Source: Verrucomicrobium sp. GAS474 (lineage in GTDB: Bacteria > Verrucomicrobiota > Verrucomicrobiia > Methylacidiphilales > GAS474). From it: DNA of 64,000 nucleotides. Below the pieces are notes generated by a model. The model saw only the letters and a list, made by a program, of their open reading frames with translations, had not been told where the DNA came from and ran no database searches. Position numbers and translations under genes: made by a program. This document shows positions 16,544-50,439 of this stretch, piece after piece; position 1 is the first letter of the stretch; every line of letters begins with the position of its first letter. The stretch is from positions 1,488,001 to 1,552,000 of the forward strand of contig NZ_LT629781.1 in the NCBI RefSeq assembly GCF_900105685.1. Reading direction: 5' to 3'.

Positions 16544-16601
16544 CTTACGAAGGATTCCCTCCCTTGGAAGCCCATTTTATCGCCCCGCCTCCTCCTTCGC
16601 A

Positions 16602-19675: not shown

Positions 19676-19678
19676 ATG
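19664..19678. promoter_or_regulatory. Palindrome CATGATT-T-AATCATG overlapping the start codon
   Basis: Seven-base perfect arms around a single central T. The right arm includes the ATG (19676-19678) of the PATR protein gene. A partial copy (CATGATTTAAT) lies 58 bases upstream. The position suggests control of translation start or a repressor site, but no regulator is known. Confidence 0.4.
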
Positions 19679-25632: not shown

Positions 25633-26574
25633 TCAATGCGCGGCCGGGGTCGCGGCGAGGGCGCGGAGGAGGTTGTCGACGGCAAAATCCATCGCGCGGT
25701 CGATGCTCTCGGCGGTGAAGCCGCCGATGTGGGGGGAGGCGATGACGCGGGGATGGGCGGCGAGGGACCAGTCCTGCGGCGGCTCCCCGTCGAAGACGTC
25801 GAGGGCGAGGGCGGCGATCCCTCCGGAATCGAGCGCGGCGGCGATGGCGGCCGGATCGATGAGGTCGAAGCGGGCGGTGTTGACCAGGAAGACCCCCTTC
25901 TTCATTCCGGCAAGGGCCGCCGCGTCGATCAGGGGGCGGTGGCCGGGAAGGGGGGGGCAGTGGAGGGTGACGACGTCGGCGGCGGCGAGGAGTTCCGGCA
26001 GCGGGGCGAAGCGGAAATCGGGCGAGGGGCGGTAGGAGGCGTCGGGATAGAGGTCCTGGGCGATCACTTTCATCCCGATCCCGAGCGCCATCCCCGAGAC
26101 GAGGCGGCCGATCCGGCCGCAGCCGACGACGCCGAGGGTCTTCCCCTCCAGCTCGATGCCGTTCGCCCGTTCCCACTTCCGCTCCTTCATCCGGGCGTCG
26201 GTGACGGGGAGCCCCCGCGCGAGGGCGAAGAGGAAGCCGATGGTCAGCTCGGCGACGCCGCGGGCGTTGGCCCCCTCGGCGCGGAGGAGGGCGATGCCTC
26301 GGGCCTGCGCGGCCTCGGTGTCGACATTGTCGATCCCGGTCCCGTTCCGGCTGATGGCGCGGAGCCGGGAGGCGGCGGCGAGGACGCGGGCCGAAACGGG
26401 CTCGACCCCGGCGAGGTAGCCCTCGCAGGCGGGGAGGAGCTCCAGGAGCTCGGCCTCGCTCGGCTGGCGTCCGGCCGGCCCGAGGACGACCTCGTGCCCC
26501 GCCGCCCGGAGGCGGTCGAGGGAGGGATGGCCGCTCCGGGTGACGGAGCGGGGGGTGACGAGGATGCGGCCCAT
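25633..26574 (-). CDS. D-2-hydroxyacid dehydrogenase (phosphoglycerate dehydrogenase-like)
   Basis: A 313-residue NAD-dependent enzyme. The NAD-binding motif is GCGRIG (151-156). The catalytic set is Arg235 (VNTAR), Glu264 (DVFDGEP) and His282 (SPHIGGFT), as in D-lactate, glycerate and phosphoglycerate dehydrogenases. It lacks the C-terminal ACT domain of many SerA enzymes, so a role in sugar-acid catabolism (for example reducing hydroxypyruvate or oxidising a D-hydroxyacid) is more likely than serine synthesis. It is the last gene of a leftward unit with the cupin isomerase (34 bases) and the shikimate-dehydrogenase-like gene. The natural substrate is unknown. Confidence 0.85.
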   Translation of the reverse strand: MGRILVTPRSVTRSGHPSLDRLRAAGHEVVLGPAGRQPSEAELLELLPACEGYLAGVEPVSARVLAAASRLRAISRNGTGIDNVDTEAAQARGIALLRAEGANARGVAELTIGFLFALARGLPVTDARMKERKWERANGIELEGKTLGVVGCGRIGRLVSGMALGIGMKVIAQDLYPDASYRPSPDFRFAPLPELLAAADVVTLHCPPLPGHRPLIDAAALAGMKKGVFLVNTARFDLIDPAAIAAALDSGGIAALALDVFDGEPPQDWSLAAHPRVIASPHIGGFTAESIDRAMDFAVDNLLRALAATPAAH

Positions 26575-26608
26575 GGCGCGTGGGGGGGGGAGGGTCCGGA
26601 AGGGGGGG

Positions 26609-27190
26609 TTACTCGATCACGACCTGGCCGCCGCGGTCGAAAGCCCGCTTCGGGAAGCCTTCCTTTTCGATGTCGCCGTAATTGTGCCCGGCGTCGCCCG
26701 GATAGACGCAGAAGCTGATCAGCGGCTCGCTCCCGGTGTTGATCGAGCGGTGGCCCCAGTAGGGCGGGACGTAGACCATCCGGCCCGGGGCGAAGCGTTC
26801 CCACCGGCACTGGCCGTCGGAGGTCTTCATCATCATCAGGCCCTCGCCGCGCAGGGCGAGGTAGATCTCCCCGGTGTTGACCCGGGAATGGTAGTGGCCC
26901 TTCGTCATGAAGTACTCGTCGCCGACCTTGCCGGCCTGGAGCTTGCTGATGCAGTACATCAGGTGGCCGTATTCGTGCGGGACGGGGACCTCGAAGACCT
27001 CGTAGTGGAGGGGGTTGCCGTCGGCGACGAGGCGGTCGAAGGCGGCCTGGTCCTGGTAGTGGCCCTTCATGTCGGAGGCGCGGCGGACGAGGTGGTCCTT
27101 CGGTTCCTTCATGATTCCGGCGACCAGGTCGAAGTCGACGGCGAAGGGATCGATGAAGCGGGTCTCGGGATGGAGTTCGATGGCGGGCAT
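26609..27190 (-). CDS. Cupin-type glucose-6-phosphate isomerase family protein
   Basis: 193 residues with the cupin phosphoglucose isomerase core FMTKGHYHSRVNTGEIYLALRGEG and VYVPPYWGHRSINTG...VYPGDAGHNYGDI. The metal ligands His99, His101, Glu108 and His147 have the same spacing as His88, His90, Glu97 and His136 of the Pyrococcus furiosus enzyme. Family members interconvert glucose-6-phosphate and fructose-6-phosphate with a metal, independently of the usual PGI fold; most are archaeal. Here it sits inside a sugar-catabolic unit between a hydroxyacid dehydrogenase and a shikimate-dehydrogenase-like protein, so it may isomerise another phosphorylated or acidic sugar. Confidence 0.85.
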   Translation of the reverse strand: MPAIELHPETRFIDPFAVDFDLVAGIMKEPKDHLVRRASDMKGHYQDQAAFDRLVADGNPLHYEVFEVPVPHEYGHLMYCISKLQAGKVGDEYFMTKGHYHSRVNTGEIYLALRGEGLMMMKTSDGQCRWERFAPGRMVYVPPYWGHRSINTGSEPLISFCVYPGDAGHNYGDIEKEGFPKRAFDRGGQVVIE

Positions 27191-27219
27191 GGGAGTGGGT
27201 TGGGTGGGTGGGAGAGGGA

Positions 27220-28170
27220 TCAGCGGGCTTCCTTGGCGATCTCGGAGAGGCGGTCGAAGACGGGGCCGCGCGGGGGGATCTCCGCGTCGAAGACGTCGGC
27301 GATGACGCGGGTCCAGCCGTGGATGAAGTAGATCCAGCCGTCCTCGACGAAGAGCGAGCGGCTCTTTTCCTGGGCCCGGGCCTGGTCGAGGAAGACGAGG
27401 TTGCCGCGGTAGTTGAATTCCCAGACATAGGCCCGCTCCGGGAAGACGACGGCGTCGGTGAGGGGGGAGCCGGGGGCGTCCTTGCCGAGGCCGGTGCCGT
27501 TCACGATCAGGGAGCCGGGCGGGAGCTTCGCGACGAGGGCGTCGCTCATCTCGGCCTGGGGGACGTGGTGGATGAGGAGCTCGACGGGGGTGTGCCAGCC
27601 CGCGTGGACCTGGCGGAGGTGGTGGAGGCGGGGCGTGCTCCGGTTGGCGACATGGATGCGGCGGGGCTTGTTGGCGCCGTGGCGTTCCTGCACCAGGTGC
27701 CAGGCGAGGGCGACGGCGGAGCCGCCCGCGCCGAGGATGAGGACCTCGGCCTCGGGGTTCTTGATCCAGTAGTCGGCGGGGAGGAAGGCCTCCAGGGCGA
27801 GGCCGCTGCTGAAGGGATCGACCGCGCGGCCCAGGATGCGGCCGTCGCGCTTGTAGATGCTGCTCACCTCGCCGAGGGCGTCGGAGAAGGCGTCGATCTC
27901 GTCGAACTGGTCGCGGCAGGCGGCGCAGAGGTCGAGCTTGTGGGTGGTGACGAGCGCGCCCCGGGAGAAGGGGTCGTTCTTGATGAAGTCGACGGCGGCG
28001 CGGTAGTTCTCCGCCGTGTCGTGGAGCTTGAAGTCGATGCCGCGGAGCTGGCAGTCGCCCAGCCCGAGGGCCTGGGCCCAGAGGGGAAAGATGCGGTTGA
28101 TCGACGACTTCGCGGTGGTGACGCCGATGAAGTACATGGTCGGCTTGTCTGCGGGGGGGTAGGCACTCAT
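27220..28170 (-). CDS. Shikimate dehydrogenase-like NAD(P)-dependent oxidoreductase
   Basis: 316 residues from the ATG at 28168-28170; an in-frame upstream codon at 28224 would run through the predicted operator. The N-terminus (FIGVTTAKSSINRIF) aligns with the substrate-binding block of AroE-type enzymes, and GALVTTHK supplies Lys78. GRAVD supplies Asp118, equivalents of the catalytic Lys65 and Asp102 of E. coli AroE, although NVTxPxK and NTD are altered to LVTTHK and AVD. The Rossmann domain reads VLILGAGGSAVALAWHL and IVNGTGLG. Its place in a sugar locus rather than an aromatic-biosynthesis locus suggests a different polyol or cyclic substrate (quinate- or inositol-like); that is inference. 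Confidence 0.72.
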   Translation of the reverse strand: MSAYPPADKPTMYFIGVTTAKSSINRIFPLWAQALGLGDCQLRGIDFKLHDTAENYRAAVDFIKNDPFSRGALVTTHKLDLCAACRDQFDEIDAFSDALGEVSSIYKRDGRILGRAVDPFSSGLALEAFLPADYWIKNPEAEVLILGAGGSAVALAWHLVQERHGANKPRRIHVANRSTPRLHHLRQVHAGWHTPVELLIHHVPQAEMSDALVAKLPPGSLIVNGTGLGKDAPGSPLTDAVVFPERAYVWEFNYRGNLVFLDQARAQEKSRSLFVEDGWIYFIHGWTRVIADVFDAEIPPRGPVFDRLSEIAKEAR

Positions 28171-28218
28171 GGGAAAATCGAGGATGGGGTGGAGGGGGTT
28201 TCGGGGAAATGAAGGTTT

Positions 28219-28242
28219 GCGCAATTAAATGGTATAAATGCG
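28219..28242 (-). promoter_or_regulatory. Predicted AraC/XylR-type operator A
   Basis: Read leftward it begins with CGCATTT (complement of 28236-28242), and 21 bases on has a second CGC half-site, CGCAAAC (28221 down to 28215). The middle (TATACCATTTAATTG) matches the sites at 33337 and 35660 at most positions. It lies 48 bases upstream of the ATG of the shikimate-dehydrogenase-like gene, in the only sizeable gap of this leftward series, suggesting a second promoter there. Confidence 0.6.
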
Positions 28243-28259
28243 AAAGCGAGGAAGCGGGC

Positions 28260-29774
28260 TCACGAAGCCGCGCTCCAGCCGTGGAGCGCGTCGAGGAGCG
28301 CCGCGTAGCGGCCGATGCGGGCCTCGCCCAGCGCGGCGATCCGGGGATCGGCGGCGGGCCGGGTGCGGGCGCCGAGGACGGTCCAGCAGTCGGCGGCGGT
28401 GGCGAGGGCGGGGAAGAGCCCGACGCCGTGCCCGGCGAGGAGGGCGGCCCCGACGGGGGCGCCCCCGGCGCGGGCGATGCCGACGACGTCGGCGCGGAGG
28501 CGGTCGGCCTTGATCCGGTTCCACGGCGCGCTCTTCTCGCCGCCGCCGGTGATGCGGATTTCGCCGATCTCGAAGCCAGGCAGGAGCGCCCGGAGCGCCC
28601 GCCGGTACAGGCCGTATTCGAGCGCGACGCCCTCGAGCATCGAGCGGAAGAGGGTTCCCTCCGAGGCGTCCCAGCCGAGCCCGACCCAGCCGCCCCGCAG
28701 CGCGGGCCAGTTCGGCGAGACCCGCCCGCCGAGGTGGGGGACGAAGAACGGGAGGGAGGCGTCGCGCAAGGGATCGGCGTCGGCGACCTCGGGGAGGCGG
28801 TTCAGTTCCTCGAAGGAAAGGCGGCCCTTGAGGATCGTCCCGCGGAACCATTCGAGGTTCTGCCCGCCGCCATTCACGTAGGCGTAGGGATGCCAGAGGC
28901 CGGGGACGACGGAGGGGCCGCAGCCGAGGGTCCGCGAGGGATCGGCGATGAACTCCGAGGTCGTCGCGGCGAAGACCGAGGCCGTCCCGGCCACGTCGAC
29001 GCAGATCCCCTCGCGGGTCGCGCCGCAGGAAAGGAAGCTGGCGGCGGTGTCGCCGCAGCCCGCCACGACGGGGAGCCCTTCGGGGAGGCCCGAGGCCCGG
29101 GCGGCCTCGGACGAGATCCGGCCGACGACCTCGTGGGGGGCGACGATCCGCGGAAGCTTCCCTGGATCGATCCCGAAGCGGGCGCAAAGGTCCGCGTCCC
29201 ACGCGCGGCGGCGGGTGTCGGCGTAGCCGGAAAAGTGGAGGTAGGTGGCGTCGATGAAGGCCTCCGCGCCGTCGAGGCCGCAGAGCCGCATCGCGACGTA
29301 GCCGCCGGGCTGGACGAAGGCGTGGATGCGGGCGTAGGCCTCGGGCCGGGTCTGCTTCCACCAGAGGATCTTCGGGCCGTGGTTGAAGCTCGGGGCGTTG
29401 CCGGTCTTCCCCAGGATCTCGTCGCCCGCCTCGCGGCTCATCTCGACGATCTGGGCGCTGCACCGGGTGTCGAGCCACGAGTCGTACGGGGTGACGGCGC
29501 GGCCCGCGCGGTCGATGCCGAGGACCCCCGCCATCTGCCCGGCGATGCCGAGCGCGGCGACGTCCCGGCCCGGCTCCCCCGCCTTGGCGAGGCACTCGGC
29601 GACAACCTCGAGGGCCGAGGTGTACTGGAATTCGGGGTCCTCCTCGACCGTCCCGGGCTCGGGCCGCAGGGGACGGGAGGGGCGGAACGCCTCGGCGAGG
29701 CAGAGGCCGTCGGCGGTGTAGAGCGCCGCCTTGACCCCCTGGGTGCCGATGTCGATGCCGACGAGCGACGCCAT
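28260..29774 (-). CDS. FGGY-family carbohydrate kinase (xylulokinase-like)
   Basis: A 504-residue ATP-dependent sugar kinase. The N-terminal phosphate-1 motif is GIDIGTQGVKAALY (residues 6-19), followed by GIAGQMAGVLGID, PYDSWLDTR and, in the second half, the FGGY-type hinge VAGCGDTAASF and GVALEYGLYRRAL...ITGGGEKSAPWNRIKAD. The overall pattern is closest to xylulokinase. It would phosphorylate a ketose produced by the fucose-isomerase-like protein encoded two genes upstream. It is part of a leftward series 33275 to 28260 with short gaps, and is followed by the operator-containing gap. The true sugar (xylulose, fuculose, or another) cannot be fixed from sequence. Confidence 0.85.
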   Translation of the reverse strand: MASLVGIDIGTQGVKAALYTADGLCLAEAFRPSRPLRPEPGTVEEDPEFQYTSALEVVAECLAKAGEPGRDVAALGIAGQMAGVLGIDRAGRAVTPYDSWLDTRCSAQIVEMSREAGDEILGKTGNAPSFNHGPKILWWKQTRPEAYARIHAFVQPGGYVAMRLCGLDGAEAFIDATYLHFSGYADTRRRAWDADLCARFGIDPGKLPRIVAPHEVVGRISSEAARASGLPEGLPVVAGCGDTAASFLSCGATREGICVDVAGTASVFAATTSEFIADPSRTLGCGPSVVPGLWHPYAYVNGGGQNLEWFRGTILKGRLSFEELNRLPEVADADPLRDASLPFFVPHLGGRVSPNWPALRGGWVGLGWDASEGTLFRSMLEGVALEYGLYRRALRALLPGFEIGEIRITGGGEKSAPWNRIKADRLRADVVGIARAGGAPVGAALLAGHGVGLFPALATAADCWTVLGARTRPAADPRIAALGEARIGRYAALLDALHGWSAAS

Positions 29775-29807
29775 GGTCTTGGTTTTCTGGGGTGGCCGGG
29801 CCGCCCG

Positions 29808-30851
29808 TTAGTTGAACGAGATGGCGGTCTTCAGCCCGCCGGTCCGGCTCACGGCCCCGGCGAAGGCCTTCTGGATCTCGCCGAGGGGGTAGGTCGCGGT
29901 GACGAGGTCATCGACGACGAGGAGGCCGTCGGCGATCAGGGCGAGGGTTTTCTGGAACTGCCGGAGGCTCTGCCGGGTCGTCCCGGTGACGAGGAGCTGC
30001 TTGTAGTGGATCAGGTTCGTGTCGAGCGGGACGTGGGACTTCCCCTTCGGCAGGCCGCCGAAGAAGAGGACGCGGCCGTTGACGGCGGCGAGCTCGACGG
30101 CGCGGGCCTGGATGTCGGCGGAAGAGCAGGCGGTGATGATGACGTCGGCCCCGCGGCCGCCGGTGAGGCGCTTCAGCTCCTCGCCGGGATCGCCGCAGAT
30201 CGTGATGAAGGAGGGGTCGATCGAGCGGACGAGGGCGAGGCGGTCCTCGTGGCGGTCGTTCACGATCACCTTCCCCGCGCCGACCATCTTCGAGAGCTTC
30301 GCGTGCATCACGCCGATCGGGCCCGCGCCGACGATGAGGACGACGTCGCCGGGGCCGGTGCGCGCCTTCTCGTAGTTGTTGTAGACGCAGGAGAGGGGCT
30401 CCACCATCGCGGCGGCCGCGAAGCTGACGTGGTTGGGGATCGGGAAGAGGTTCCCCTGGAGGACGGCCTCGCGCGGGATGCGGACGTACTCGGCGAAGGC
30501 GCCGTGCTCGTGGATGCCGAGGGCGCGGTAGTCGGGATCGAGGTAGCCCTCGCCCGCGACGGTCAGCTCGGAGCTGACGGGATTGTAGTTCGGGGCGACG
30601 CAGACGCGCTGTCCGGCCTGGAGACCCCGGACCCCGGCCCCGACGCGGGCGATCGTCCCCGCCATCTCGTGGCCGATCACGAGGGGTTGGTCGGGCGTGG
30701 CGAAGGCGTGGCCGTTCTTCCACATGCGGATGTCGGTGCCGCAGATCGAGGCCCCGCCGGTGCGGATCAGGACTTCGCCCTCCCCGATCTGGGGTTCGGG
30801 CAGGGTGCCGAGGCGGAGGTCTTCTTTTTCGTAGAGGAGGGCGGCGTTCAT
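29808..30851 (-). CDS. Zinc-type medium-chain dehydrogenase without structural zinc site
   Basis: 347 residues of the sorbitol/L-threonine/galactitol dehydrogenase-like MDR group. The catalytic zinc ligands are in place: Cys37 (ASICGTD), His61-Glu62 (GHEMAG) and Glu151 (MVEPLSC). The NAD domain reads VLIVGAGPIGVMHAKLSK. The lobe that normally holds four Cys ligands for the structural zinc (residues 84-115) has only Cys84 and contains PNYNPVSSELTVAGEGYLD instead. It probably oxidises a sugar or polyol hydroxyl in the pathway encoded around it. It lies 33 bases upstream of the FGGY kinase and 55 bases downstream of the isomerase-like gene. Confidence 0.83.
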   Translation of the reverse strand: MNAALLYEKEDLRLGTLPEPQIGEGEVLIRTGGASICGTDIRMWKNGHAFATPDQPLVIGHEMAGTIARVGAGVRGLQAGQRVCVAPNYNPVSSELTVAGEGYLDPDYRALGIHEHGAFAEYVRIPREAVLQGNLFPIPNHVSFAAAAMVEPLSCVYNNYEKARTGPGDVVLIVGAGPIGVMHAKLSKMVGAGKVIVNDRHEDRLALVRSIDPSFITICGDPGEELKRLTGGRGADVIITACSSADIQARAVELAAVNGRVLFFGGLPKGKSHVPLDTNLIHYKQLLVTGTTRQSLRQFQKTLALIADGLLVVDDLVTATYPLGEIQKAFAGAVSRTGGLKTAISFN

Positions 30852-30906
30852 GAAACGAGGGGTGAGGGGTGGGAGGGATTGGGTTCGGAACGGGTCGGTC
30901 GGCGCA

Positions 30907-32241
30907 TCAGGCTTCGTCGATCCGGAGCCCGAAGATGGGGGCGATCTCCCCGATGTCCGACCCGTAGTGGCCGTGCATGAGGAGGAAGTGGTGGGAGGCG
31001 AGGCGGCTCAGGAGCTTCTTCCCGTCCTTCACCCGGACGACGCCGCCGGTGAGGCAGTCGGTCCCCGGCTGCTGGGAGTAGCCTTCGAGCTCGCCCTCGG
31101 CGACGGTCATCGTCGAGAAGTCGGAATGGATCTTCGCAAGGGTGAGGGGCCCCTCGGGGATCCGGGCGTCGATGGCGACGGCGTTCTCGTCGACGATGCG
31201 GAGGACCTTCTTCTTGAGGTTCCACTCGGTGGCGTAGGACTGGGGGATGAGGCCGGTGTAGCCGCAGTGGGCGACGAGGATGTAGTCGTCGGGGTTCCCC
31301 TTCACGGGGGGGAAAGCGGTCATCCGCTCGTGCCGCAGGGCGGCGTCGCCCATGAGGAAGGGATAGAGGTTCGTCATGAACGCGGGCGCGCCGAGCGACT
31401 TGTTCAGGATGTACTGGTTGAGCATCGAGATGACGTCGCCCTCGCAGCCCCAGATGAAGCCGCCCTCGAGGTGGAGCCGGTTCCAGGCGAGGCACGGGGT
31501 GCTGTCGCAGAAGTGGGACTCGTTGAGGCAGTTGATGCCGACGGCGCGGATCGAGCGGTCGGCGTCGAGGTCGCGCTTCACGGCCAGGTAGAGTTTCGTC
31601 GCGCTGTTGAGGGCGCGGTCGGAGAGGTCCTCCGTCGGGACGCCCCAGCTCCGGCGGGCCTCGACGGCGTCGGCGTCGGGGAGGGAGCGGGACCGCTCGC
31701 CGAGTTCCTTGAAGCTCCGCTTCTCGATCCGGATGCCGAAGCGGTCGGTCATCCGCTGGACGGCCTCGCTTTCCCACCAATAGAAGCGTTTGAAGATCGG
31801 GGCCTGCTGTCCCTCGCCGGGATTGTCCTGGTAGACGAGGAACTTCGTCCCGCGGAGCTCCGCGCGGACGCGGAGGGCGGAGAACATCTTCCGGGCCTGG
31901 GCCGGGCTGCGGGGGGCGAGGGTCGGGACGCCGGCCTCGCGGAGGTAGGTCATCAGCTCCCAGTCCCACATGGAGAAGGTGCCGAACTCCGAGGTGATGA
32001 TGAGGATCGGGAGGGTGATCGCCTTGAAGGCGGCCAGGCACCGGTAGCCCTCGCCGAGAAGTTGCGGGAAGACCACGGCGTCGGCCGCGGGAAGGGATTC
32101 CCCCAGCGCGACGGGCGGAAGGAAATCGGCGACGTCGCCGAAGAGCTCCCGCAGGATGACGAGCTGGCGGTCGAAGCCGTCGTCGCGGCCCGGTTGGAAG
32201 AAGAGAGGGACGATCTGCGGCTTCGGCTCGGTGGAGGGCAT
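30907..32241 (-). CDS. L-fucose isomerase-like protein
   Basis: 444 residues from the ATG at 32239-32241; the frame is open upstream but only antisense to the oxidoreductase. Features match the fucose/arabinose isomerase-related family: an N-terminal Rossmann-like region (ILIITSEFGTFSMWDWELMTYLR), then the hallmark AVGINCLNESHFCDSTPCLAWN and GCEGDVISMLNQYIL in the central domain, and a C-terminal domain with HCGYTG and HHFLLMHGHYG. Such proteins interconvert aldoses and ketoses with a divalent metal. The gene sits just behind a Gfo/Idh/MocA oxidoreductase (8 bases) and ahead of the MDR dehydrogenase, in the XylR-type regulated series. The substrate may not be fucose. Confidence 0.72.
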   Translation of the reverse strand: MPSTEPKPQIVPLFFQPGRDDGFDRQLVILRELFGDVADFLPPVALGESLPAADAVVFPQLLGEGYRCLAAFKAITLPILIITSEFGTFSMWDWELMTYLREAGVPTLAPRSPAQARKMFSALRVRAELRGTKFLVYQDNPGEGQQAPIFKRFYWWESEAVQRMTDRFGIRIEKRSFKELGERSRSLPDADAVEARRSWGVPTEDLSDRALNSATKLYLAVKRDLDADRSIRAVGINCLNESHFCDSTPCLAWNRLHLEGGFIWGCEGDVISMLNQYILNKSLGAPAFMTNLYPFLMGDAALRHERMTAFPPVKGNPDDYILVAHCGYTGLIPQSYATEWNLKKKVLRIVDENAVAIDARIPEGPLTLAKIHSDFSTMTVAEGELEGYSQQPGTDCLTGGVVRVKDGKKLLSRLASHHFLLMHGHYGSDIGEIAPIFGLRIDEA

Positions 32242-32249
32242 AACAGGCT

Positions 32250-33275
32250 TTAGAGGGTGACGGGCTTGCGCTCGCGGATCGACTGGTTGCCCGCGTTGAC
32301 GACGGCGACGGCGGCGCGGCCGTCCTTCCCGGCGGCGGCGGGGGGGCGGCCCTCCCGGATCGAGGTGGCGAACTCGATGTCCTCGGCGAGGTAGGCCTCG
32401 CGGAAGAGGTTCATCCACGAGACGATGGCGGGGCTCCGGAGTTCCTTCTCGCGGGTGCAGACCATGACGGTGTCCCCGCGGAGGCTCCCGATCGTGATCA
32501 GGCCGTGGGTGCCGAGGATCTCGCACCGGGCGTCGTAGGCGTACTGGACGCCCTGCGCGCCGCTGATCGAGCCCTGCGCGCCGTTCGAGAGGCGGGCCGT
32601 GAGGAGGACCTGGTCGTAGAAGTCGGGGTAGTCGGCGACGGCCTCGGGGGTCCGGTAGTTCCCGGCGATGGCGTGGACTTCGGTGAATTCCCCGCCGCTG
32701 AACCAGCGGACCGTGTCGATGTCGTGGCTGTTCACCTCGGCGAGGGGGCCGTTGCTCTTCGCGAGGTCGAACATCCACGGACGGGGGTAGCTGGGGCCGT
32801 GGGTGAGGGTCTTCACCTGGACGACCTCGCCGATCTCCCCGGCCTCGACCCGGGCCTTCGCCGCGCGGAATCCGGCGTCGAAGCGGCGCATGAAGCCGAT
32901 CTGGAGGTTGACCTTCCCCTTCGCGGCGGCGGCGATCATCGCGTCGCACTCGTCGACCCGCATCGCCATCGGCTTCTCGCAGAAGATGTGCTTCCCGGCG
33001 GCGGCGGCGGCCTCGGCGATCTCCCGGTGGAGGGAGGTGGGGGTGGCGATGACGACGGCGTCGACGTCGTCGCGGGTGACGGCCTCGCGGTAGTCGGCAT
33101 GGGCCGCCGAGGCGGGGAGGGCGAGGTCCCGGGCGGCGGTCTCGCGGGACTCGGCGACGGCGTCGGAGACCGCCGTGACGCGGGCGTCGGGGACGGAACG
33201 GGAGAAATTACCGGCGTGGATCATGCCGGCGCGGCCGGTGCCGACGATGGCGATGCGAAGGGGTTGCTGGCTCAT
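32250..33275 (-). CDS. Gfo/Idh/MocA family oxidoreductase (inositol 2-dehydrogenase-like)
   Basis: 341 residues from the ATG at 33273-33275, where IAIVGTGRAGMIHAGN follows directly. The NAD(P)-binding GTGRAG (12-17), the family signature FCEKPMA with Glu100-Lys101-Pro102, and NSHDIDTVRWFSG with the conserved Asp/His of the active site are all present. Family members oxidise or reduce inositols, sugars or sugar acids at a ring carbon. It is the first gene of the leftward series (Gfo, isomerase, MDR, kinase) and has predicted operator B 61 bases upstream of its start. It is divergent from the TIM-barrel isomerase at 33575. Confidence 0.87.
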   Translation of the reverse strand: MSQQPLRIAIVGTGRAGMIHAGNFSRSVPDARVTAVSDAVAESRETAARDLALPASAAHADYREAVTRDDVDAVVIATPTSLHREIAEAAAAAGKHIFCEKPMAMRVDECDAMIAAAAKGKVNLQIGFMRRFDAGFRAAKARVEAGEIGEVVQVKTLTHGPSYPRPWMFDLAKSNGPLAEVNSHDIDTVRWFSGGEFTEVHAIAGNYRTPEAVADYPDFYDQVLLTARLSNGAQGSISGAQGVQYAYDARCEILGTHGLITIGSLRGDTVMVCTREKELRSPAIVSWMNLFREAYLAEDIEFATSIREGRPPAAAGKDGRAAVAVVNAGNQSIRERKPVTL

Positions 33276-33336
33276 GAAAAAAATGGAGGGAAGGTCCCAA
33301 CCTGCCCGAGCGGGTTCCGTCGCCCAATGACCAATC

Positions 33337-33360
33337 GCGTAATAAAATGATACAAATGCG
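33337..33360. promoter_or_regulatory. Predicted AraC/XylR-type operator B (divergent promoter)
   Basis: Leftward reading gives CGCATTT (33360-33354) and, 21 bases on, CGCGATT (33339-33333). A further CGCGATT precedes the first half-site (33367-33361). The middle TGTATCATTTTAT is identical to that of the site at 35660. It lies in the gap between the divergent genes starting at 33275 and 33575, 61 bases before the former. Confidence 0.68.
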
Positions 33361-33574
33361 AATCGCGTTTCGCGCTCCTCTCTTATCGTCTCGCCCGAGG
33401 GCCGCCGCGCGGCGGTCCCCCTGCCCGGCGATGATTGACTTGGCGTCGCGCTTGGGAATAGCTTCCCCCAGCCGCCTCTCTCCCCGCCGCGTCCGGCATC
33501 GCGGAGAAAGGAGGTCCGCCCCCATTCATCCGAATCCTCGAAATCCACCCCCAAAAAATTCCCGGAGTCTTCCC

Positions 33575-34435
33575 ATGAAAATCGGCATCGACAGCTACTG
33601 CTACCATCGCTTCTTCGGCGAGGTCTATCCCATGCAGAAACCGGCCCCCGCGCCCTACACGATGGAATCGTTCCTCGACCGCGCCAAGGCGCTCGGCTGC
33701 GACGGCGTCTCGCTCGAGAGCTGCTTCTTCCCCGAGTTCGGGGCCGCCTACCTCGCCCGGCTGCGGACGAAGCTCGACGCCCTCGGCTTTGACCGCGTCT
33801 ACGCCTGGGGCCATCCCGACGGCCTCGAGGCGGGGGGCAACGCGAAGGCGAAGGAGGAGATGATCGCCCACATCGAGCACGCCGCCGCGATCGGCGCGCC
33901 GGTGATGCGGGTCGTCGGCAGCAGCCTCATGTTCCGCAACGCCCCGCACGAGCCGCAGCTGAAGATCCTCGCCCAATGGTTCCGCGAGGCCGCCGCCGTC
34001 GCGGAGAAGAAGGGGATCCGCCTCGCGGTGGAGAACCACATCGACTACAATTCCGACGAGATCCTCTGGCTGATCGAGGAGGTGGGCTCTGAGTACTTCG
34101 GCGTCAACCTCGACACGGCCAACTTCATCCGCGTCCTCGACGATCCGGTCGAGGCGACCCGCAAGCTCGCGAAGCATGTCTTCGCGACCCACGTGAAGGA
34201 CCTCCGCCCGGTGAAGGGGGTCAGCGTGCGCGAGTGGTATTACTTCTCCTCCGTCGCCGCCGGGACCGGCCTCGTCGAGGTCGAGTCGATCGCCCGCATC
34301 CTGAAGGAGGCCGGCTACAAGGGCTTCCTCGCCTTCGAGACCGACATGCCCCACCCCGACTACGAGGGAGAGGAAGAGCGGATGATCGAGGAGAGCATGG
34401 CCTACCTGAAGGGGGTCGCCGCCCGCGTCGGCTAA
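33575..34435 (+). CDS. Sugar phosphate isomerase/epimerase (xylose-isomerase-like TIM barrel)
   Basis: 286 residues from the ATG at 33575. The AP-endonuclease-2/xylose-isomerase TIM barrel is recognisable from MKIGIDSYCYH at strand 1, GCDGVSLES near residue 45, RLAVENHIDYNSDEI with the metal-binding Glu, FGVNLDTANF with the Asp, FATHVKD with the His, and a final FLAFETDMPHP. These enzymes isomerise or epimerise small sugars, keto-inositols or hydroxypyruvate. It leads the rightward unit with the Gfo/Idh/MocA gene at 34478 (42 bases on) and is divergent from the Gfo gene at 33275 across predicted operator B. Confidence 0.85.
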   Translation: MKIGIDSYCYHRFFGEVYPMQKPAPAPYTMESFLDRAKALGCDGVSLESCFFPEFGAAYLARLRTKLDALGFDRVYAWGHPDGLEAGGNAKAKEEMIAHIEHAAAIGAPVMRVVGSSLMFRNAPHEPQLKILAQWFREAAAVAEKKGIRLAVENHIDYNSDEILWLIEEVGSEYFGVNLDTANFIRVLDDPVEATRKLAKHVFATHVKDLRPVKGVSVREWYYFSSVAAGTGLVEVESIARILKEAGYKGFLAFETDMPHPDYEGEEERMIEESMAYLKGVAARVG

Positions 34436-34477
34436 GGCTGTCCCGTCCGTTCCATCCCAAATCAACCCATCCCTGTC

Positions 34478-35653
34478 ATGAGCAAAAAACCGCTCCGCAT
34501 CGCCATCATCGGCTACAACTTCATGGGCAAGGCCCACTCGAACGGCTGGCTCCAGGCCCGCCGGTTCTTCGACCTCGACGTCGAGCCGGTCCTCCAGGTC
34601 GCCTGCGGCCGGGACGAGGCTGCCGTCCGCGCCTTCGCCGACCGCTGGGGCTGGAAGCACGTCGAGACCGACTGGCGGAAGGCCGTCGAGCGGGACGACG
34701 TCGACGTCGTCGACATTTCGCTCCCGCAGCACCTCCATCACGACGTGGCGGTCGCCGCCGCCCGCGCCGGGAAGCATCTCTTCTGCGAGAAGCCGATGGC
34801 CCTCTCCCTCTCCGACGCGGAGGAGATGCTCGCCGCCGCCCGGAAGGCCGGGGTGAAGCATTACGTCAACCACAACTACCGCCGCTGCCCCGCCGTCCGC
34901 CTCGCCCGCCAGCTCATCGACGAGGGACGGATCGGGCGCATCTTCCATTGGCGCGGCTCCTACCAGCAGGACTGGATCGTCGATCCCGCCTTCCCTCTCA
35001 CGTGGCACTTGAAGAAGGAGACGGCGGGCTCGGGGCCGCACGGCGACCTCAATTCCCACAGCGTCGACCTCGCCCACTACCTCGTCGGCGACATCCGGCG
35101 CGTCTCGTGCCTCACCACCCGCTTCATCGACGAGCGGCCCCTGCCGGGCGCGGGGGCGGCGACCTTCAGCGCGGGGACCGGCGCCGGTCCGGTCGAGATG
35201 GGCAAGGTGACCGTCGAGGACGCCTCGCTGATGATGGCCGAGTTCGCCTCCGGCGCGGTCGGTTCCTTCGAGGCGACCCGCTTCGCGCCGGGGCGGAAGA
35301 ACCGCAACGCCTTCGAGATCTACGGCAGCGAGGGAAGCCTCGCCTTCGACCTCGAGCGGATGAACGAGCTCCAGTATTTCTCCCGCCGCGACCCCGGGCA
35401 CGCCCAGGGCTTCCGCACGATCCTGGCGACCGAGGCCTCCCATCCCTACATCGCGAACTGGTGGCCCCCCGGCCACATCATCGGCTACGAGCACGGCTTC
35501 GCCCACGCCGCGGCCGACTTCGCCCAGGCCGTCGCCCGCGACCTGCCGATCGATCCCGATTTCTCCGACGGGGTGAAATGCATCCGCGTCCTCGAGGCCG
35601 GCCTGAAGTCGGCCGCCGAGGGGCGCGCCGTCGAGACCGGCGCGGGAAAATGA
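34478..35653 (+). CDS. Gfo/Idh/MocA family oxidoreductase
   Basis: 391 residues with IAIIGYNFMGKAHSNGW at the nucleotide-binding site (Gly12, Gly17), FCEKPMALSLSDAEEML with Glu104-Lys105-Pro106, HNYRRCPAV, and GDLNSHSVDLAHYLVG holding the active-site Asp and His. It is longer than the paralogue at 32250 and matches the subgroup found beside xylose-isomerase-like proteins in inositol and sugar-derivative pathways; the two together (isomerase plus dehydrogenase) often form a pair. The substrate is unknown. Operator C lies right behind its stop codon, showing that the aldolase gene downstream has its own control. Confidence 0.87.
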   Translation: MSKKPLRIAIIGYNFMGKAHSNGWLQARRFFDLDVEPVLQVACGRDEAAVRAFADRWGWKHVETDWRKAVERDDVDVVDISLPQHLHHDVAVAAARAGKHLFCEKPMALSLSDAEEMLAAARKAGVKHYVNHNYRRCPAVRLARQLIDEGRIGRIFHWRGSYQQDWIVDPAFPLTWHLKKETAGSGPHGDLNSHSVDLAHYLVGDIRRVSCLTTRFIDERPLPGAGAATFSAGTGAGPVEMGKVTVEDASLMMAEFASGAVGSFEATRFAPGRKNRNAFEIYGSEGSLAFDLERMNELQYFSRRDPGHAQGFRTILATEASHPYIANWWPPGHIIGYEHGFAHAAADFAQAVARDLPIDPDFSDGVKCIRVLEAGLKSAAEGRAVETGAGK

Positions 35654-35659
35654 CGGCGA

Positions 35660-35683
35660 CGCATTTGTATCATTTTATGACGC
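35660..35683 (+). promoter_or_regulatory. Predicted AraC/XylR-type operator C
   Basis: CGCATTT at 35660-35666 is repeated exactly at 35681-35687, 21 bases (two helical turns) later, the spacing of AraC-type direct repeats. It lies between the Gfo stop codon (35651-35653) and the aldolase start, 92 bases before the chosen ATG at 35776 or 59 before the alternative at 35743. Confidence 0.68.
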
Positions 35684-35775
35684 ATTTCAACCATGCGGAG
35701 CCGGAGGCTCCTTTGGGATAAGGGTCTTTTCCGAACCGTCCCATGACTCCCAGCGCCCCCTCCTCCTCTCCCGCC

Positions 35776-36429
35776 ATGAACAAAGAACAGATCCTCCAGC
35801 GTCTCCTCGATCCCGGCCTCGTCGCCATCATCCGGGCCGACAGCTCCGAGGGGGTGGCCGACGCGGCGGCCGCTCTCCTCGAGGGCGGGATCGACGCGAT
35901 CGAGCTGACGATGACGACGCCCGGGGCCCTCGGCGCGGTCGCCGAGATCTCCCGCCGCTTCGGCGATCGCGTCCTGATCGGAATCGGCTCGGTGACCGAC
36001 GTCGAGAGCGCCGAGCGGGCGATCTACGCGGGGGCCCTCTTCGTCGTCACGCCGGTCTTCCGTCCGAAGGTCGTCGCCGCCTGCCGCCGCCACGGGAGGC
36101 CGATCGCCTCGGGCGCCTACACGCCGACCGAGGCCCTCGACGCGTGGGAGGCGGGGAGCGATTTCGTGAAGATCTTCCCGGCCGACAGCGTCGGGCCCGG
36201 TTACATCAAGGCCCTCAAGGCCCCGCTCCCCCAGCTGCGGATCATCCCGACGGGCGGGGTGAACCTGAAGACGGTGAAGGAGTTCCTCGCCGCCGGGTGT
36301 GCCGCCCTCGCGGTCGGGAGCAACCTGGTCTCGAAGGAAGTCCTCGCCAGGAAGGATTGGAAGACCCTGAGCGAGACCGCCGCCGCCTACGTCGCCGCGG
36401 TCCGGACCGCCCGGCAGGAATTGAAATGA
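35776..36429 (+). CDS. KDPG/KHG-type aldolase
   Basis: 217 residues from the ATG at 35776, preferred over an in-frame ATG at 35743 that adds TPSAPSSSPA. It is a class I aldolase of the Eda family that would cleave a 2-keto-3-deoxy sugar acid phosphate to pyruvate plus an aldehyde. The Schiff-base Lys132 lies in DFVKIFPAD, Glu43 in IELTMTTP, and the phosphate-binding IPTGGVN near residue 158. The Arg of the E. coli EVTLRT motif is a Thr here (ELTMTT), a variant found in many paralogues of unproven substrate. It closes the rightward unit of this locus and is preceded by operator C. Confidence 0.87.
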   Translation: MNKEQILQRLLDPGLVAIIRADSSEGVADAAAALLEGGIDAIELTMTTPGALGAVAEISRRFGDRVLIGIGSVTDVESAERAIYAGALFVVTPVFRPKVVAACRRHGRPIASGAYTPTEALDAWEAGSDFVKIFPADSVGPGYIKALKAPLPQLRIIPTGGVNLKTVKEFLAAGCAALAVGSNLVSKEVLARKDWKTLSETAAAYVAAVRTARQELK

Positions 36430-36461
36430 AGCCCCTCCCCCCGGACGGCCGCCCTCTCGTC

Positions 36462-37319
36462 TCAGCGAAGGGTGATTCGTTCCCCGCAGCGGGGGAGGAG
36501 GAACGGCTGGCCCAGGCGGCGGCACGTCGCGGCGAATTCGTCGGGCAGCGCCGTGTTGAAGGTGAACATGTCGTAGTGGTGGGGGATCGCGAGGGCCGCG
36601 CCGCAGGCCCGGGCGAGGGCCGCTGCCTCGATCCCGTTGAGGTTCCCCGCGACGCCGCGCGCCGGCTCGTTCCCGTTGATCGGGAGGAGGACGGTGTCGG
36701 GACGGGCGGCGAGAAGGGCCTCGCTCAGACCCGCGTGCCAGAGGGTGTCGCCGCTGTGGTAGAGCGTCCGCTTGCCGAGCCGGAAGACGAAGCCGAGGTA
36801 GAGATGCTCCCCCGCGTTGTTCCGCGCGAGGTCGGGATGGGCCGAGGCGATCGCCTCGACGGTGATTTCGCCGGCCTTGCCGAGGCGGATCGCGCCGCCC
36901 GCGTCGAGGGGAAGATAATCGACGGGGGCCTCTCCGAGCTTGCCCTTGGCGATGAGGATGTTCGCGGGCGAGAGGACCAGCTTCATCGTCTCCCCGCGCG
37001 CCGCCATGGCGTGGGCCAGGGGAACGAGGGTCTCGGGATCGAGGTGGTCGGTGTGGGCGTGGCTCGAGAAGACGATGGGGGAGAGGGAGGCGAGGGCTTC
37101 GGGAGCGAGGCACCGTTCGGTCATGCGGACGTGCTCCTTGTCGGTTCCCGCGTACTTCCGCGTCAGCGAATCGGAGAGGTAGGGATCGACCAGCAGATGG
37201 ACGCCGCCGCTCTTGACGAGGTAGCCGCTCTGTCCCAGCCACCAGAGATGGGACTCCTCCCCCGGGGCGGAAGCGATGTCGGCAAGGAGGGCGTCGTCCT
37301 GGAGGGCGGGGATGATCAT
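36462..37319 (-). CDS. Metallo-beta-lactamase-fold hydrolase, UlaG-like
   Basis: 285 residues. The metal-binding motif is SSHAHTDHLD, with His87, His89, Asp91 and His92. Upstream is LWWLGQSGYLVKSGGVHLLVDPYLSDS, and downstream are HLYLGFVFRLGKRTLYHSGDT and IPHHYDMF. This order is typical of UlaG, the L-ascorbate-6-phosphate lactonase. In this locus it could open a sugar lactone made by one of the dehydrogenases. It is divergent from the AraC/XylR regulator with predicted operator D between them, 48 bases before its start, so it is probably a target of that regulator. Confidence 0.83.
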   Translation of the reverse strand: MIIPALQDDALLADIASAPGEESHLWWLGQSGYLVKSGGVHLLVDPYLSDSLTRKYAGTDKEHVRMTERCLAPEALASLSPIVFSSHAHTDHLDPETLVPLAHAMAARGETMKLVLSPANILIAKGKLGEAPVDYLPLDAGGAIRLGKAGEITVEAIASAHPDLARNNAGEHLYLGFVFRLGKRTLYHSGDTLWHAGLSEALLAARPDTVLLPINGNEPARGVAGNLNGIEAAALARACGAALAIPHHYDMFTFNTALPDEFAATCRRLGQPFLLPRCGERITLR

Positions 37320-37367
37320 GAGGGCCTGAGGATGGGCCGGGGCGGTCCGAATGGCATTGAGATAAAT

Positions 37368-37391
37368 CGCAAACTTATTACACTTTTGCGC
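37368..37391. promoter_or_regulatory. Predicted AraC/XylR-type operator D, next to the regulator's start codon
   Basis: A more degenerate copy: CGCAAAC at 37368-37374 equals the second half-site of operator A, and a CGC lies 21 bases on (37389-37391). TTTTGCG at 37384-37390 also makes an inverted arrangement. It ends two bases before the regulator ATG at 37394, so binding would block the regulator's own expression, and it lies 48 bases upstream of the divergent UlaG-like gene. Confidence 0.5.
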
Positions 37392-37393
37392 TA

Positions 37394-38566
37394 ATGGCCC
37401 GCCGCCCGCCAGTCCTTTCCCGCACGCCGCACGTCGCGCTCCTGATCGAGACGTCGAAGTTCTACGGCCGCGAGAGCCTCCTCGGCATCAGCACCTATGC
37501 CCGCCTTCACGGCGGTTGGTCGATCTACGCCGTCGAGCGGGGGCAGAACGATCCCGATCCCGGCTGGCTGGCGAACTGGAAGGGCGACGGCATCATCACG
37601 CGGAGCTTCGACCTGAAGCTCTGCCGCCGCGCCCAGAAGCGGGGCATCCCCGTCGTCAGCCTCCGCCACCTCGTTCCGAAGCCCGAGTTCCCCTCCTTCT
37701 TTCCCGACCAGGTGGCGATCGCGAACCGCGTCGCCCGCCACTTCATCGAGCGCGGCGTCCGCCGCTTCGCCTACATGACGATCCCGGGGGACCGGGGATG
37801 GGAGGAGATCCGCCGCGCCGCCTTCGTCCAGGTCCTCCAGAAGGAGGGGATGCCCGCGCCCGCCATCCGCCTCCTCTCGACCGAGGCGGGGATGAACTGG
37901 GAGCACCAGGAGGGCGAGCTCGTCACCTGGCTGCGGCAGCTGCCGAAGCCGGTCGGCATCATGACGAGCCACGACGCCCAGGGACTCCTCGTCCTCGACG
38001 CCTGCCGCCGCGCGGGGATCCGGGTCCCCGACGACGTCGCCGTGGTCAGCGTCGACAACGACCCGGTCCTCTGCGAGATCTCGGCCCCGCCGCTCTCCAG
38101 CCTCGACCAGAACGTCCAGAAAATCGGCTTCGAGGCGGCGGCGGCCCTCGACCGGATGATGCGGGGCGAGGCGTGCGCGGCGAAGAATTACTTCATCGAG
38201 CCGGGCGACGTCGTCACGCGGCAATCGTCCGACGTCCTGATGGTCGACGATCCGGGCCTCGCCAAGGCGATCCGGTTCGTCCGCGAGGCGGGCGGGAAGG
38301 GGATCGGCGTCAACGACATGGCCCGCGTCGCCGGGATGTCCCGGCGGGCGCTCGAGATGAAATTCGTGAAGGTGATCGGCCGGACCCCGCTGGAGGAGAT
38401 CCAGGAGATCCGCTACCGCCGCACCCGCCATCTCCTGCTGGAGACGAACTACACCCTGCCGCAGATCGCCGAACTGGTCGGCATCCAGTACCACGAGTAC
38501 CTCGTCCGCTTCTTCAAGAAACGCTCGGGCATGACCCCGGGGGAATTTCGGCGGCGGATGGGGTGA
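37394..38566 (+). CDS. XylR-like transcriptional regulator (sugar-binding domain plus AraC HTH)
   Basis: 390 residues. Residues about 12-270 form a LacI/periplasmic-binding-protein-like domain (VALLIETSKFYGRESLLGI, GIMTSHDAQGLLVLDACRRAGIRVPDDVAVVSVDND), as in E. coli XylR. Residues about 285-388 are the AraC double helix-turn-helix (GVNDMARVAGMSRRALEMKF and YTLPQIAELVGIQYHEYLVRFFKKRSGMTPGEFRRR). It should bind a sugar or sugar phosphate and activate or repress nearby genes by contacting direct repeats. Four candidate sites occur in the 9.2 kb to its left, one at its own start. The inducer is unknown. Confidence 0.87.
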   Translation: MARRPPVLSRTPHVALLIETSKFYGRESLLGISTYARLHGGWSIYAVERGQNDPDPGWLANWKGDGIITRSFDLKLCRRAQKRGIPVVSLRHLVPKPEFPSFFPDQVAIANRVARHFIERGVRRFAYMTIPGDRGWEEIRRAAFVQVLQKEGMPAPAIRLLSTEAGMNWEHQEGELVTWLRQLPKPVGIMTSHDAQGLLVLDACRRAGIRVPDDVAVVSVDNDPVLCEISAPPLSSLDQNVQKIGFEAAAALDRMMRGEACAAKNYFIEPGDVVTRQSSDVLMVDDPGLAKAIRFVREAGGKGIGVNDMARVAGMSRRALEMKFVKVIGRTPLEEIQEIRYRRTRHLLLETNYTLPQIAELVGIQYHEYLVRFFKKRSGMTPGEFRRRMG

Positions 38567-38659: not shown

Positions 38660-39058
38660 CTAGCCGATCGGTCGCGCCGCGATCACCAGAAGCCGGAGAT
38701 CCTCGGTCCCCGTGTTCTTCAGCCCGTGGAAGCCGTTGGCGAAGCAGCCGCTGACGTCGCCCGGCCCCATCGGATAGTCCTTCCCGTCGAGGGTCATCAC
38801 GCCGTGGCCGGAGAGGACGTAATACCATTCCTCGAACGGCGTCTCGCTCGGATGCTGATGGTAGCCGATCGAGGTGCCGGGCGGGAGGATGTCGTCGTGG
38901 ATGTAGCGGATGAAGTGCTTGGCGGGGAGCTTCTCGATCAGGTCGCGGCAGGTGACGGTGCCGACGCCGCCATGGCATTCGCCGAACGCCTTCGCCGCGA
39001 TCTCCCGGTCTTCGATGAAGAGGGTGGTCGATGGAGAGGGGGCAGGGCGGGTGCTCAT
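38660..39058 (-). CDS. Small cupin-domain protein
   Basis: 132 residues from the ATG at 39056-39058. One cupin-2 barrel is visible: PPGTSIGYHQHPSETPFEEWYYVLSGHG has the His, His and Glu metal ligands, and PMGPGDVSGCFANGFHGLKN has the last His. Such proteins are sugar isomerases, dioxygenases or sensors. It is third in a leftward group with the TIM-barrel isomerase and MDR protein, 23 bases behind the latter. The function is not determinable. Confidence 0.78.
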   Translation of the reverse strand: MSTRPAPSPSTTLFIEDREIAAKAFGECHGGVGTVTCRDLIEKLPAKHFIRYIHDDILPPGTSIGYHQHPSETPFEEWYYVLSGHGVMTLDGKDYPMGPGDVSGCFANGFHGLKNTGTEDLRLLVIAARPIG

Positions 39059-39081
39059 GGCGGCGAAGGGGTGTCGGAGGA

Positions 39082-40056: not shown

Positions 40057-40082
40057 GGGATCGTGGGTCGGGTGGGGTGGGG

Positions 40083-40919: not shown

Positions 40920-41068
40920 GGGACTCCGTTCGAAAAGGGAAGGATTTGCATCGGTCGAGGATGGGGCCTTTTCTCCTTTTCGGCCATGCCTGGTTCGATT
41001 ATAGATATATCCAAAACAACTGCGCCTCTTCAAGTCCCCTTTCGTTCCCTTTCCGGCGCCACCCCGAA

Positions 41069-47772: not shown

Positions 47773-47797
47773 AGCCTAGGCCTGCCAGCCTCTCGGC

Positions 47798-50406: not shown

Positions 50407-50439
50407 GGGATGGATGGTTGAGGGATTTTTCGGTTTTTT

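Follow-up and report, generated by a model that had tools for sequence, protein, structure and literature searches.

Do the eleven enzyme genes and one regulator at positions 25633-38566 of the Verrucomicrobium sp. GAS474 window (the whole 64,000-nt stretch of DNA analysed, from a single-contig genome of 3.76 Mb) serve one pathway, and if so, which reactions would it carry out? All the families listed here by a first-pass annotation were found, with their motifs kept (Table 1). That annotation also knew of no single described pathway with the full set, and we likewise found no description of this gene set, or of the 3-deoxy-sugar route considered below, in the open-licence PubMed Central (PMC) literature. 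The locus has two arms and was studied through its shikimate-dehydrogenase-like (AroE-like) gene. It represents a conserved, uncharacterised catabolic neighbourhood with a core of about six genes and, in this genome, a rarer upstream arm. As the core recurs in unrelated bacteria, the gene set is probably a real pathway, and at a probability of roughly 0.4 we propose that the core of this two-armed catabolic locus encodes a phosphorylative route of the Entner-Doudoroff kind, assembled from non-homologous enzymes.

The core neighbourhood recurs in unrelated bacteria

An alignment of four AroE-like proteins was used to search 84,980 genomes, one per species, yielding 273 confirmed relatives. The best 80 of these loci were kept, a choice that biases the counts towards close relatives, and eleven plasmid loci (L090-L100) were added, giving 91; the main counts refer to the 75 loci that reach 12 kb, the 16 shorter ones being dropped. 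Since a simple open reading frame (ORF) caller preferred an antisense ORF to the real gene in several loci (community c15, over the AroE-like gene), families were counted instead by tblastn (E 1e-15, 40% coverage).

Beside the AroE-like gene, the 75 loci carried a cupin-type phosphoglucose isomerase in 69 cases, an FGGY kinase in 60, an UlaG-like hydrolase in 59, a 2-hydroxyacid dehydrogenase in 51, a 2-keto-3-deoxy-6-phosphogluconate (KDPG)-type aldolase in 34, a medium-chain dehydrogenase/reductase (MDR) in 26, a GlcD-type oxidase in 18, the IolG-like dehydrogenase Gfo1 in 17 and a Gfo2-type dehydrogenase in 16, with some of the FGGY, aldolase, Gfo2 and MDR matches being distant paralogues. 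The FucI-like protein (9), the TIM barrel TIM1 (7) and the regulator (3) were the rarest. Where both genes were present among the 91 loci, the strand of the AroE-like gene was shared by the isomerase in 77/78, the 2-hydroxyacid dehydrogenase in 59/59, the UlaG-like hydrolase in 65/66 and the aldolase in 38/38, the proportion being lower for the FGGY kinase (40/66) and the GlcD-type oxidase (2/18). The core was found, with strand and close spacing kept, in Verrucomicrobiota, Planctomycetota, Spirochaetota, Lentisphaerota, Pseudomonadota and Actinomycetota. Two Phycisphaerae loci (L024 and L031) hold Gfo1, TIM1, FucI-like, Gfo2, MDR, FGGY, AroE-like, isomerase, 2-hydroxyacid dehydrogenase and UlaG-like genes on one strand, to which L031 adds the aldolase as an eleventh family on the same strand, and a Chthoniobacteraceae locus (L012) has all twelve window families but the UlaG-like one. 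No fusions between core enzymes were detected among the ORFs of the 91 loci. The first-pass annotation had named failure of these genes to stay together as the result that would count against it; for the core of about six genes, the comparison gave the opposite outcome.

Within Verrucomicrobiota, the AroE-like gene occurs in 4/387 genomes and a cupin isomerase of any kind in 17/387. In each of the four genomes with the AroE-like gene, no more than about 150 bp separates the two matches, a pairing that is more than chance. The 13 genomes with a cupin isomerase and no AroE-like gene served as a control: at the 12 loci examined, a weak match in genome G202 being excluded, no other core gene was found (12/12), only scattered MDR-, aldo-keto-reductase-, AraC- or GlcD-type matches. 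The association is therefore specific to this isomerase subfamily and is not a property of cupin isomerases generally. The AroE-like protein clusters with eight Verrucomicrobiota rows in a clade with 100/100 support, from which the genome looks verrucomicrobial; no AroE-like match was found in the six other genomes listed for the same order. The regulator was found at 5/80 loci (4/91 under a stricter filter), all of them recorded as Verrucomicrobiota, and its relatives (59-69%) adjoin the core in L010-L013 and L015.

The core enzymes and the probable order of their steps

The AroE-like protein has no Pfam match above cut-off and matches the NCBIfam aroE models weakly (best 41.4 bits vs a cut-off of 413). 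Its predicted model, at a predicted local distance difference test score (pLDDT) of 94, has the AroE fold, with top Z scores of 26.9 (3tnl) and 25.5 to the 5-ketofructose reductase 7cok, and Lys78 and Asp118, which we take to be the catalytic pair, are invariant across 38 rows. The protein is thus a member of the AroE fold family that falls short of the aroE equivalog score. Among known systems it can be compared with the 5-ketofructose reductases (Gluconobacter, Protein Data Bank (PDB) 7cok; Tatumella Kfr), likewise AroE-fold enzymes, with 18% identity over the structural alignment with 7cok; these reductases demonstrate that sugars are possible substrates for the AroE fold (PMC7954740).

Conserved residues were also found in the other core proteins. 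The 2-hydroxyacid dehydrogenase keeps Arg235, Glu264 and His282, presumably catalytic, in 51/51 aligned rows, and the cupin isomerase, the sole PF06560 match in the genome, keeps His99, His101, Glu108 and His147, which we assume to be metal ligands, in 54/54. Asp8 and Asp242 of the FGGY kinase are conserved in 20/20 rows, its best matches being xylulokinases. The UlaG-like hydrolase matches the structure of UlaG (2wyl, E 9.7e-6) and has its HxHxDH motif conserved in 61/61 rows.

A cupin isomerase of this family, PfPGI, is described as acting on glucose/fructose 6-phosphate (PMC6627849), and UlaG, judging by the names of the matched model and structure, opens a phosphorylated lactone. Since the FGGY kinase is moreover a constant partner, phosphorylation would by analogy probably precede the oxidation and lactone steps. 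One UlaG-like hydrolase, on a Shinella plasmid (L093, 14464-15807), is fused to a low-molecular-weight phosphatase domain (PF01451), which fits a phosphorylated substrate. Of the steps foreseen in the first-pass annotation, lactone opening, phosphorylation and KDPG-type cleavage thus stay plausible; its order (oxidise, open, isomerise, phosphorylate, cleave) should be revised, as phosphorylation probably comes earlier.

A second clue is an exchange between two enzyme types. Among the 75 loci, the 2-hydroxyacid dehydrogenase is present alone in 49 and a GlcD-type flavin adenine dinucleotide (FAD) oxidase alone in 16, with both in two and neither in eight. Because the GlcD carriers are mostly Burkholderiaceae, common ancestry plays a part in this pattern, and the 16 cannot be counted as independent events. 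In our reading the two enzymes serve one and the same step, and as the flavin enzyme would act as an oxidase, we take that step to be the oxidation of a 2-hydroxyacid. The aldolase is restricted to loci with the 2-hydroxyacid dehydrogenase (34/34), at positions within the operon that differ between phyla.

A proposed Entner-Doudoroff-like route

From the observed families, motifs, folds, neighbourhood and dehydrogenase/flavin-oxidase exchange we infer all the reactions, their order and the substrate as follows. The FGGY kinase would phosphorylate the far end of a ketose. The cupin isomerase would convert the resulting ketose phosphate to an aldose phosphate, which would be oxidised to a lactone by the AroE-like enzyme, probably with NADP; the UlaG-like hydrolase would open this lactone, giving an aldonate phosphate. 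Next, the 2-hydroxyacid dehydrogenase would oxidise C2 to give a 2-keto acid, and the KDPG-type aldolase would cleave it to pyruvate and a triose phosphate. In loci that have no aldolase, a housekeeping Eda could serve.

In the phosphorylative Entner-Doudoroff pathway (Pgi, Zwf, Pgl, Edd, Eda), the steps resembled are those of the proposed isomerase, sugar-phosphate dehydrogenase, lactonase and KDPG-type aldolase; the difference is that all steps of the locus except the aldolase would use unrelated families, and that a 2-hydroxyacid would be oxidised where Edd dehydrates. The aldolase scores as a KDPG aldolase (178.4 vs 156 bits), whereas no 6-phosphogluconate dehydratase (PF00920) is present in the locus. 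The single PF00920 match of the genome lies outside the window, at 3412126-3413079, with none among the cluster proteins, and no MR_MLE_C match was found in the genome at E 1e-5, UxuA-type dehydratases (PF03786) not being searched for. Given this distance and this absence, the PF00920 and MR_MLE_C families do not obviously serve the locus aldolase. The cluster enzymes are probably not housekeeping copies, as elsewhere the genome has another gene with an AroE N-terminal domain, two ordinary phosphoglucose isomerases and a second KDPG-type aldolase.

KDPG aldolases require a 2-keto-3-deoxy acid. If the route oxidises C2 instead of dehydrating C2-C3, O-3 has to be absent from the sugar beforehand; an oxidation in the dehydratase slot of the classical pathway would be chemically workable with a sugar already devoid of its C3 hydroxyl. 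A DeoC aldolase (TIGR00126, 173.9 bits, over cut-off) lies 8-50 bp from an FGGY kinase in six of the nine loci having DeoC (L095, at 15654-17952, L069, L078, L080, L089 and L099), and could cut a 3-deoxy skeleton at the ketose-phosphate stage. Together with the oxidation logic, this hints at a 3-deoxy-hexulose as substrate, a sugar that would be compatible with every proposed step. A more specific version, in which the route is dedicated to 3-deoxy-hexuloses such as 3-deoxyfructose from 3-deoxyglucosone, a Maillard and Amadori breakdown product, with KDPG made directly, no dehydratase, and an alternative DeoC-type cut in some carriers, seems doubtful to us.

Several observations weigh against the proposed core route. 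AroE enzymes act on secondary alcohols of rings, and the oxidation of C1 to a lactone is not textbook AroE chemistry; no tested activity was found for any enzyme of this subfamily in the records examined. Three Opitutaceae-type loci (L018, L020 and L022) have the AroE-like gene without any core gene, and locus L017 has it without isomerase, 2-hydroxyacid dehydrogenase and UlaG-like hydrolase. The KDPG-type aldolase is absent from 41/75 loci, and the window copy is of a different sequence type (ELTMTT, vs EITFRT in most core-linked copies). Finally, the FGGY partners in Proteobacteria, whose identity to the window kinase is only about 26-31%, may use other substrates.

The upstream arm

The FucI-like protein matches PF02952 at only 14.8 bits; its predicted model (pLDDT 86) was matched by Foldseek to L-arabinose isomerase (4r1p, E 5.5e-19) and L-fucose isomerase (6k1g, E 1.2e-13), and on this model it has the predicted arabinose/fucose-isomerase fold. 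The MDR dehydrogenase scores below cut-off with both the L-threonine dehydrogenase (164.6 bits) and IolM models (157 bits, cut-off 450). Gfo1 keeps its EKP and HDxD motifs in 14/14 rows, and the PDB neighbours of Gfo2 are 4h3v and 6a3f, the latter being a levoglucosan dehydrogenase.

FucI-like genes were found at 12/91 loci, and TIM1 and Gfo2 (>150 bits) at the same 8/91, seven of which also have FucI-like; these three look like an upstream add-on to the core. TIM1 relatives occur in 4/387 genomes of the phylum, two of the three others being on contigs of about 3.3 kb, and TIM1 was thus uninformative as an anchor gene there. The upstream end itself varies: IolG-like and MDR enzymes in Verrucomicrobiota, Planctomycetota and Spirochaetota, short-chain dehydrogenases/reductases (SDRs) with GldA-type and GolD/DthD-type dehydrogenases in rhizobia, and a DkgA-type aldo-keto reductase with a HAD phosphatase in Marinovum. 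In the proposed route, Gfo1 and MDR (or SDR, GldA-type or aldo-keto reductase enzymes in other phyla) would act on polyol or dicarbonyl forms to supply the ketose, which the FucI-like enzyme would also make from the aldose, and the TIM1/Gfo2 pair might prepare a further precursor.

Alternative explanations

The alternative that survives best, although we still regard it as unlikely, is a cyclitol (inositol or deoxyinositol) route similar to that for myo-inositol in Thermotoga maritima (IolG, IolM, IolN and IolO). Here Gfo1 and MDR would oxidise the ring twice, the UlaG-like enzyme would open it, the cupin would stand for IolB and the FGGY kinase for IolC, and the aldolase would end the route. 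The locus does resemble that system in having IolG-like and IolM-like relatives, a TIM barrel and a hydrolase, and AroE enzymes use cyclohexane-ring substrates. In addition, the genome has no match to IolB/KduI (PF04962) at E 0.01, so that the canonical IolB route is absent and another one would be needed. However, the scores of Gfo1 with IolG (264 vs 355 bits), MDR with IolM (157 vs 450) and TIM1 with IolE (40 bits) are all under the curated cut-offs, the kinase is of another family than in Thermotoga, and the cupin, AroE-like and 2-hydroxyacid genes are extra. The UlaG-like gene was considered as IolN and rejected: no IolN match was found anywhere in the genome at E 10, with Thermotoga maritima as a positive control. 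The core also occurs in Proteobacteria without close Gfo1 relatives, and the cyclitol route leaves the 2-hydroxyacid dehydrogenase without a role.

About equally improbable is that the core is a generic route for ordinary hexulose or pentulose phosphates of odd stereochemistry, the AroE-like and 2-hydroxyacid dehydrogenases together inverting one carbon through an oxidation and a reduction, and the KDPG aldolase being kept for another substrate. The kinase's preference for xylulokinases among its matches would agree with this, as would the resemblance of the rhizobial upstream SDR, GldA-type and MDR enzymes to polyol dehydrogenases; the loci in which a flavin GlcD-type oxidase takes the place of the 2-hydroxyacid dehydrogenase (16/75) nevertheless argue against a reductive role, and the aldolase is bound to that dehydrogenase (34/34).

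TIM1 and Gfo2 resemble the dehydrogenase/TIM-barrel pair of levoglucosan catabolism, and this raises a further possibility, slightly less likely again, in which Gfo2 would oxidise C3 of a glycoside or anhydrosugar, TIM1 would eliminate the aglycone or ring bond, Gfo1 would re-reduce the product and the core would process the released sugar. The constant company of TIM1 and Gfo2 in the eight loci speaks for such a 3-keto-glycoside route, as do the 368 bits of Gfo2 with the levoglucosan dehydrogenase model, a score that is, however, far under the equivalog cut-off of 650. The scheme accounts for the upstream arm only, 83/91 loci of the anchor gene have no TIM1, additional partners of the levoglucosan route were not identified, and that pathway is not known to include the core genes. 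That the locus is a loose assembly of sugar genes with no common pathway is very improbable: the core-free loci L018, L020 and L022 and the variable upstream arm would suit it, but strand and close spacing are maintained across at least six phyla.

A pathway in the same phylum was also compared. The L-glucose/L-galactose pathway of Luteolibacter LG18, as described (PMC12632266), comprises lguABCDEF with lguG and lguH and proceeds through L-glucose dehydrogenase, L-gluconate dehydrogenase, a C-4 epimerase, D-tagaturonate reductase, altronate dehydratase, 2-keto-3-deoxygluconate (KDG) kinase and an aldolase. Like our proposal, it is a sugar oxidation ending in a KDPG aldolase, but no AroE-like, cupin isomerase or FGGY step is mentioned in that description (PMC12632266), so the lgu pathway was set aside on the strength of the described steps.

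Locus layout and flanking genes

Seven minus-strand genes, beginning with Gfo1 at 33275 and ending with the 2-hydroxyacid dehydrogenase at 25633, are spaced 8-89 bases apart, and the plus-strand arm of TIM1, Gfo2 and aldolase starts at 33575 (Table 1). A regulator-motif search in the divergent intergenic region returned weak repeats only; a weak 24-nt inverted repeat at 33385-33432 is at most a candidate operator. Promoter and terminator scans gave two and four matches, respectively, the number of terminators not being above that in shuffled sequence.

Table 1. Features of the locus at 25633-38566, with positions in the window.
Feature	Positions	Strand	Evidence
D-isomer-specific 2-hydroxyacid dehydrogenase (core)	25633..26574	-	PF02826 163.7 bits
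Cupin-type phosphoglucose isomerase (core)	26609..27190	-	PF06560 102.6 bits, cut-off 20.7
Shikimate-dehydrogenase-like (AroE-like) dehydrogenase (core, anchor gene)	27220..28170	-	AroE fold
FGGY carbohydrate kinase, xylulokinase-like (core)	28260..29774	-	PF00370/PF02782; XylB 241.8 bits, cut-off 380
Zinc-type MDR alcohol/polyol dehydrogenase	29808..30851	-	PF08240/PF00107
Arabinose/fucose-isomerase-fold protein (FucI-like), likely aldose isomerase, upstream add-on	30907..32241	-	Fold match
IolG-like Gfo/Idh/MocA dehydrogenase (Gfo1)	32250..33275	-	TIGR04380 264 bits, cut-off 355
Divergent intergenic region between the two arms, 299 bases	33276..33574	.	Flanking-gene coordinates
AP_endonuc_2 TIM barrel (TIM1), epimerase/dehydratase/eliminase type	33575..34435	+	PF01261 113.9 bits; IolE 40.3 bits
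Levoglucosan-dehydrogenase-like Gfo/Idh/MocA dehydrogenase (Gfo2)	34478..35653	+	NF052479 368 bits, cut-off 650
KDPG/KHG aldolase	35743..36429	+	TIGR01182 178.4 bits, over cut-off 156
UlaG-like metallo-beta-lactamase-fold hydrolase, likely lactonase (core)	36462..37319	-	PF12706; UlaG model 30.9 bits
Regulator: periplasmic-binding-protein domain + AraC-type helix-turn-helix	37394..38566	+	PF13377, PF12833

Two large exported repeat proteins, both with a PEP-CTERM-like tail by eye, adjoin the cluster at 22896-25421 (minus strand, with a PATR repeat) and 19676-22882 (plus strand), and in L010 and L012, too, the regulator is followed by long repeat-type proteins (633 and 1621 aa). On the other side, a second small sugar group at 38660-41899 comprises a cupin, an MDR, an AP_endonuc_2 TIM barrel and a divergent AraC regulator; it is not conserved with the core, one 40% MDR match (L015) and one 33% AraC match (L066) being found. 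This group is adjoined by an ADP-ribosylglycohydrolase family protein (PF03747; 41904-43328, minus strand) and an IclR-type regulator (43433-44302). A sugar-type transporter of the major facilitator superfamily (847 aa; 44633-47176, plus strand) extends several hundred residues beyond its transporter domain and is a candidate importer for either sugar group. Three long ORFs (47769-48995, 48994-50421 and 50440-52881) have no Pfam match at E 1e-4.

Significance

In plasmid records the core genes are annotated as shikimate dehydrogenase, glucose-6-phosphate isomerase, phosphoglycerate dehydrogenase, MBL (metallo-beta-lactamase)-fold hydrolase and Eda. A gene set kept together across so many phyla and given four of these names (all but the hydrolase) by genome annotation is probably mis-described in many genomes. 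Named carriers such as Paraburkholderia tropica, Rhizobium leguminosarum and Marinovum algicola make a substrate screen practical. If the oxidation-for-dehydration logic is true, the core would represent a second chemical solution to making KDPG-type keto acids, and if the 3-deoxy-hexulose reading is true, products of sugar damage in soil, sediment and water would have in this pathway a widespread sink that has gone unrecognised.

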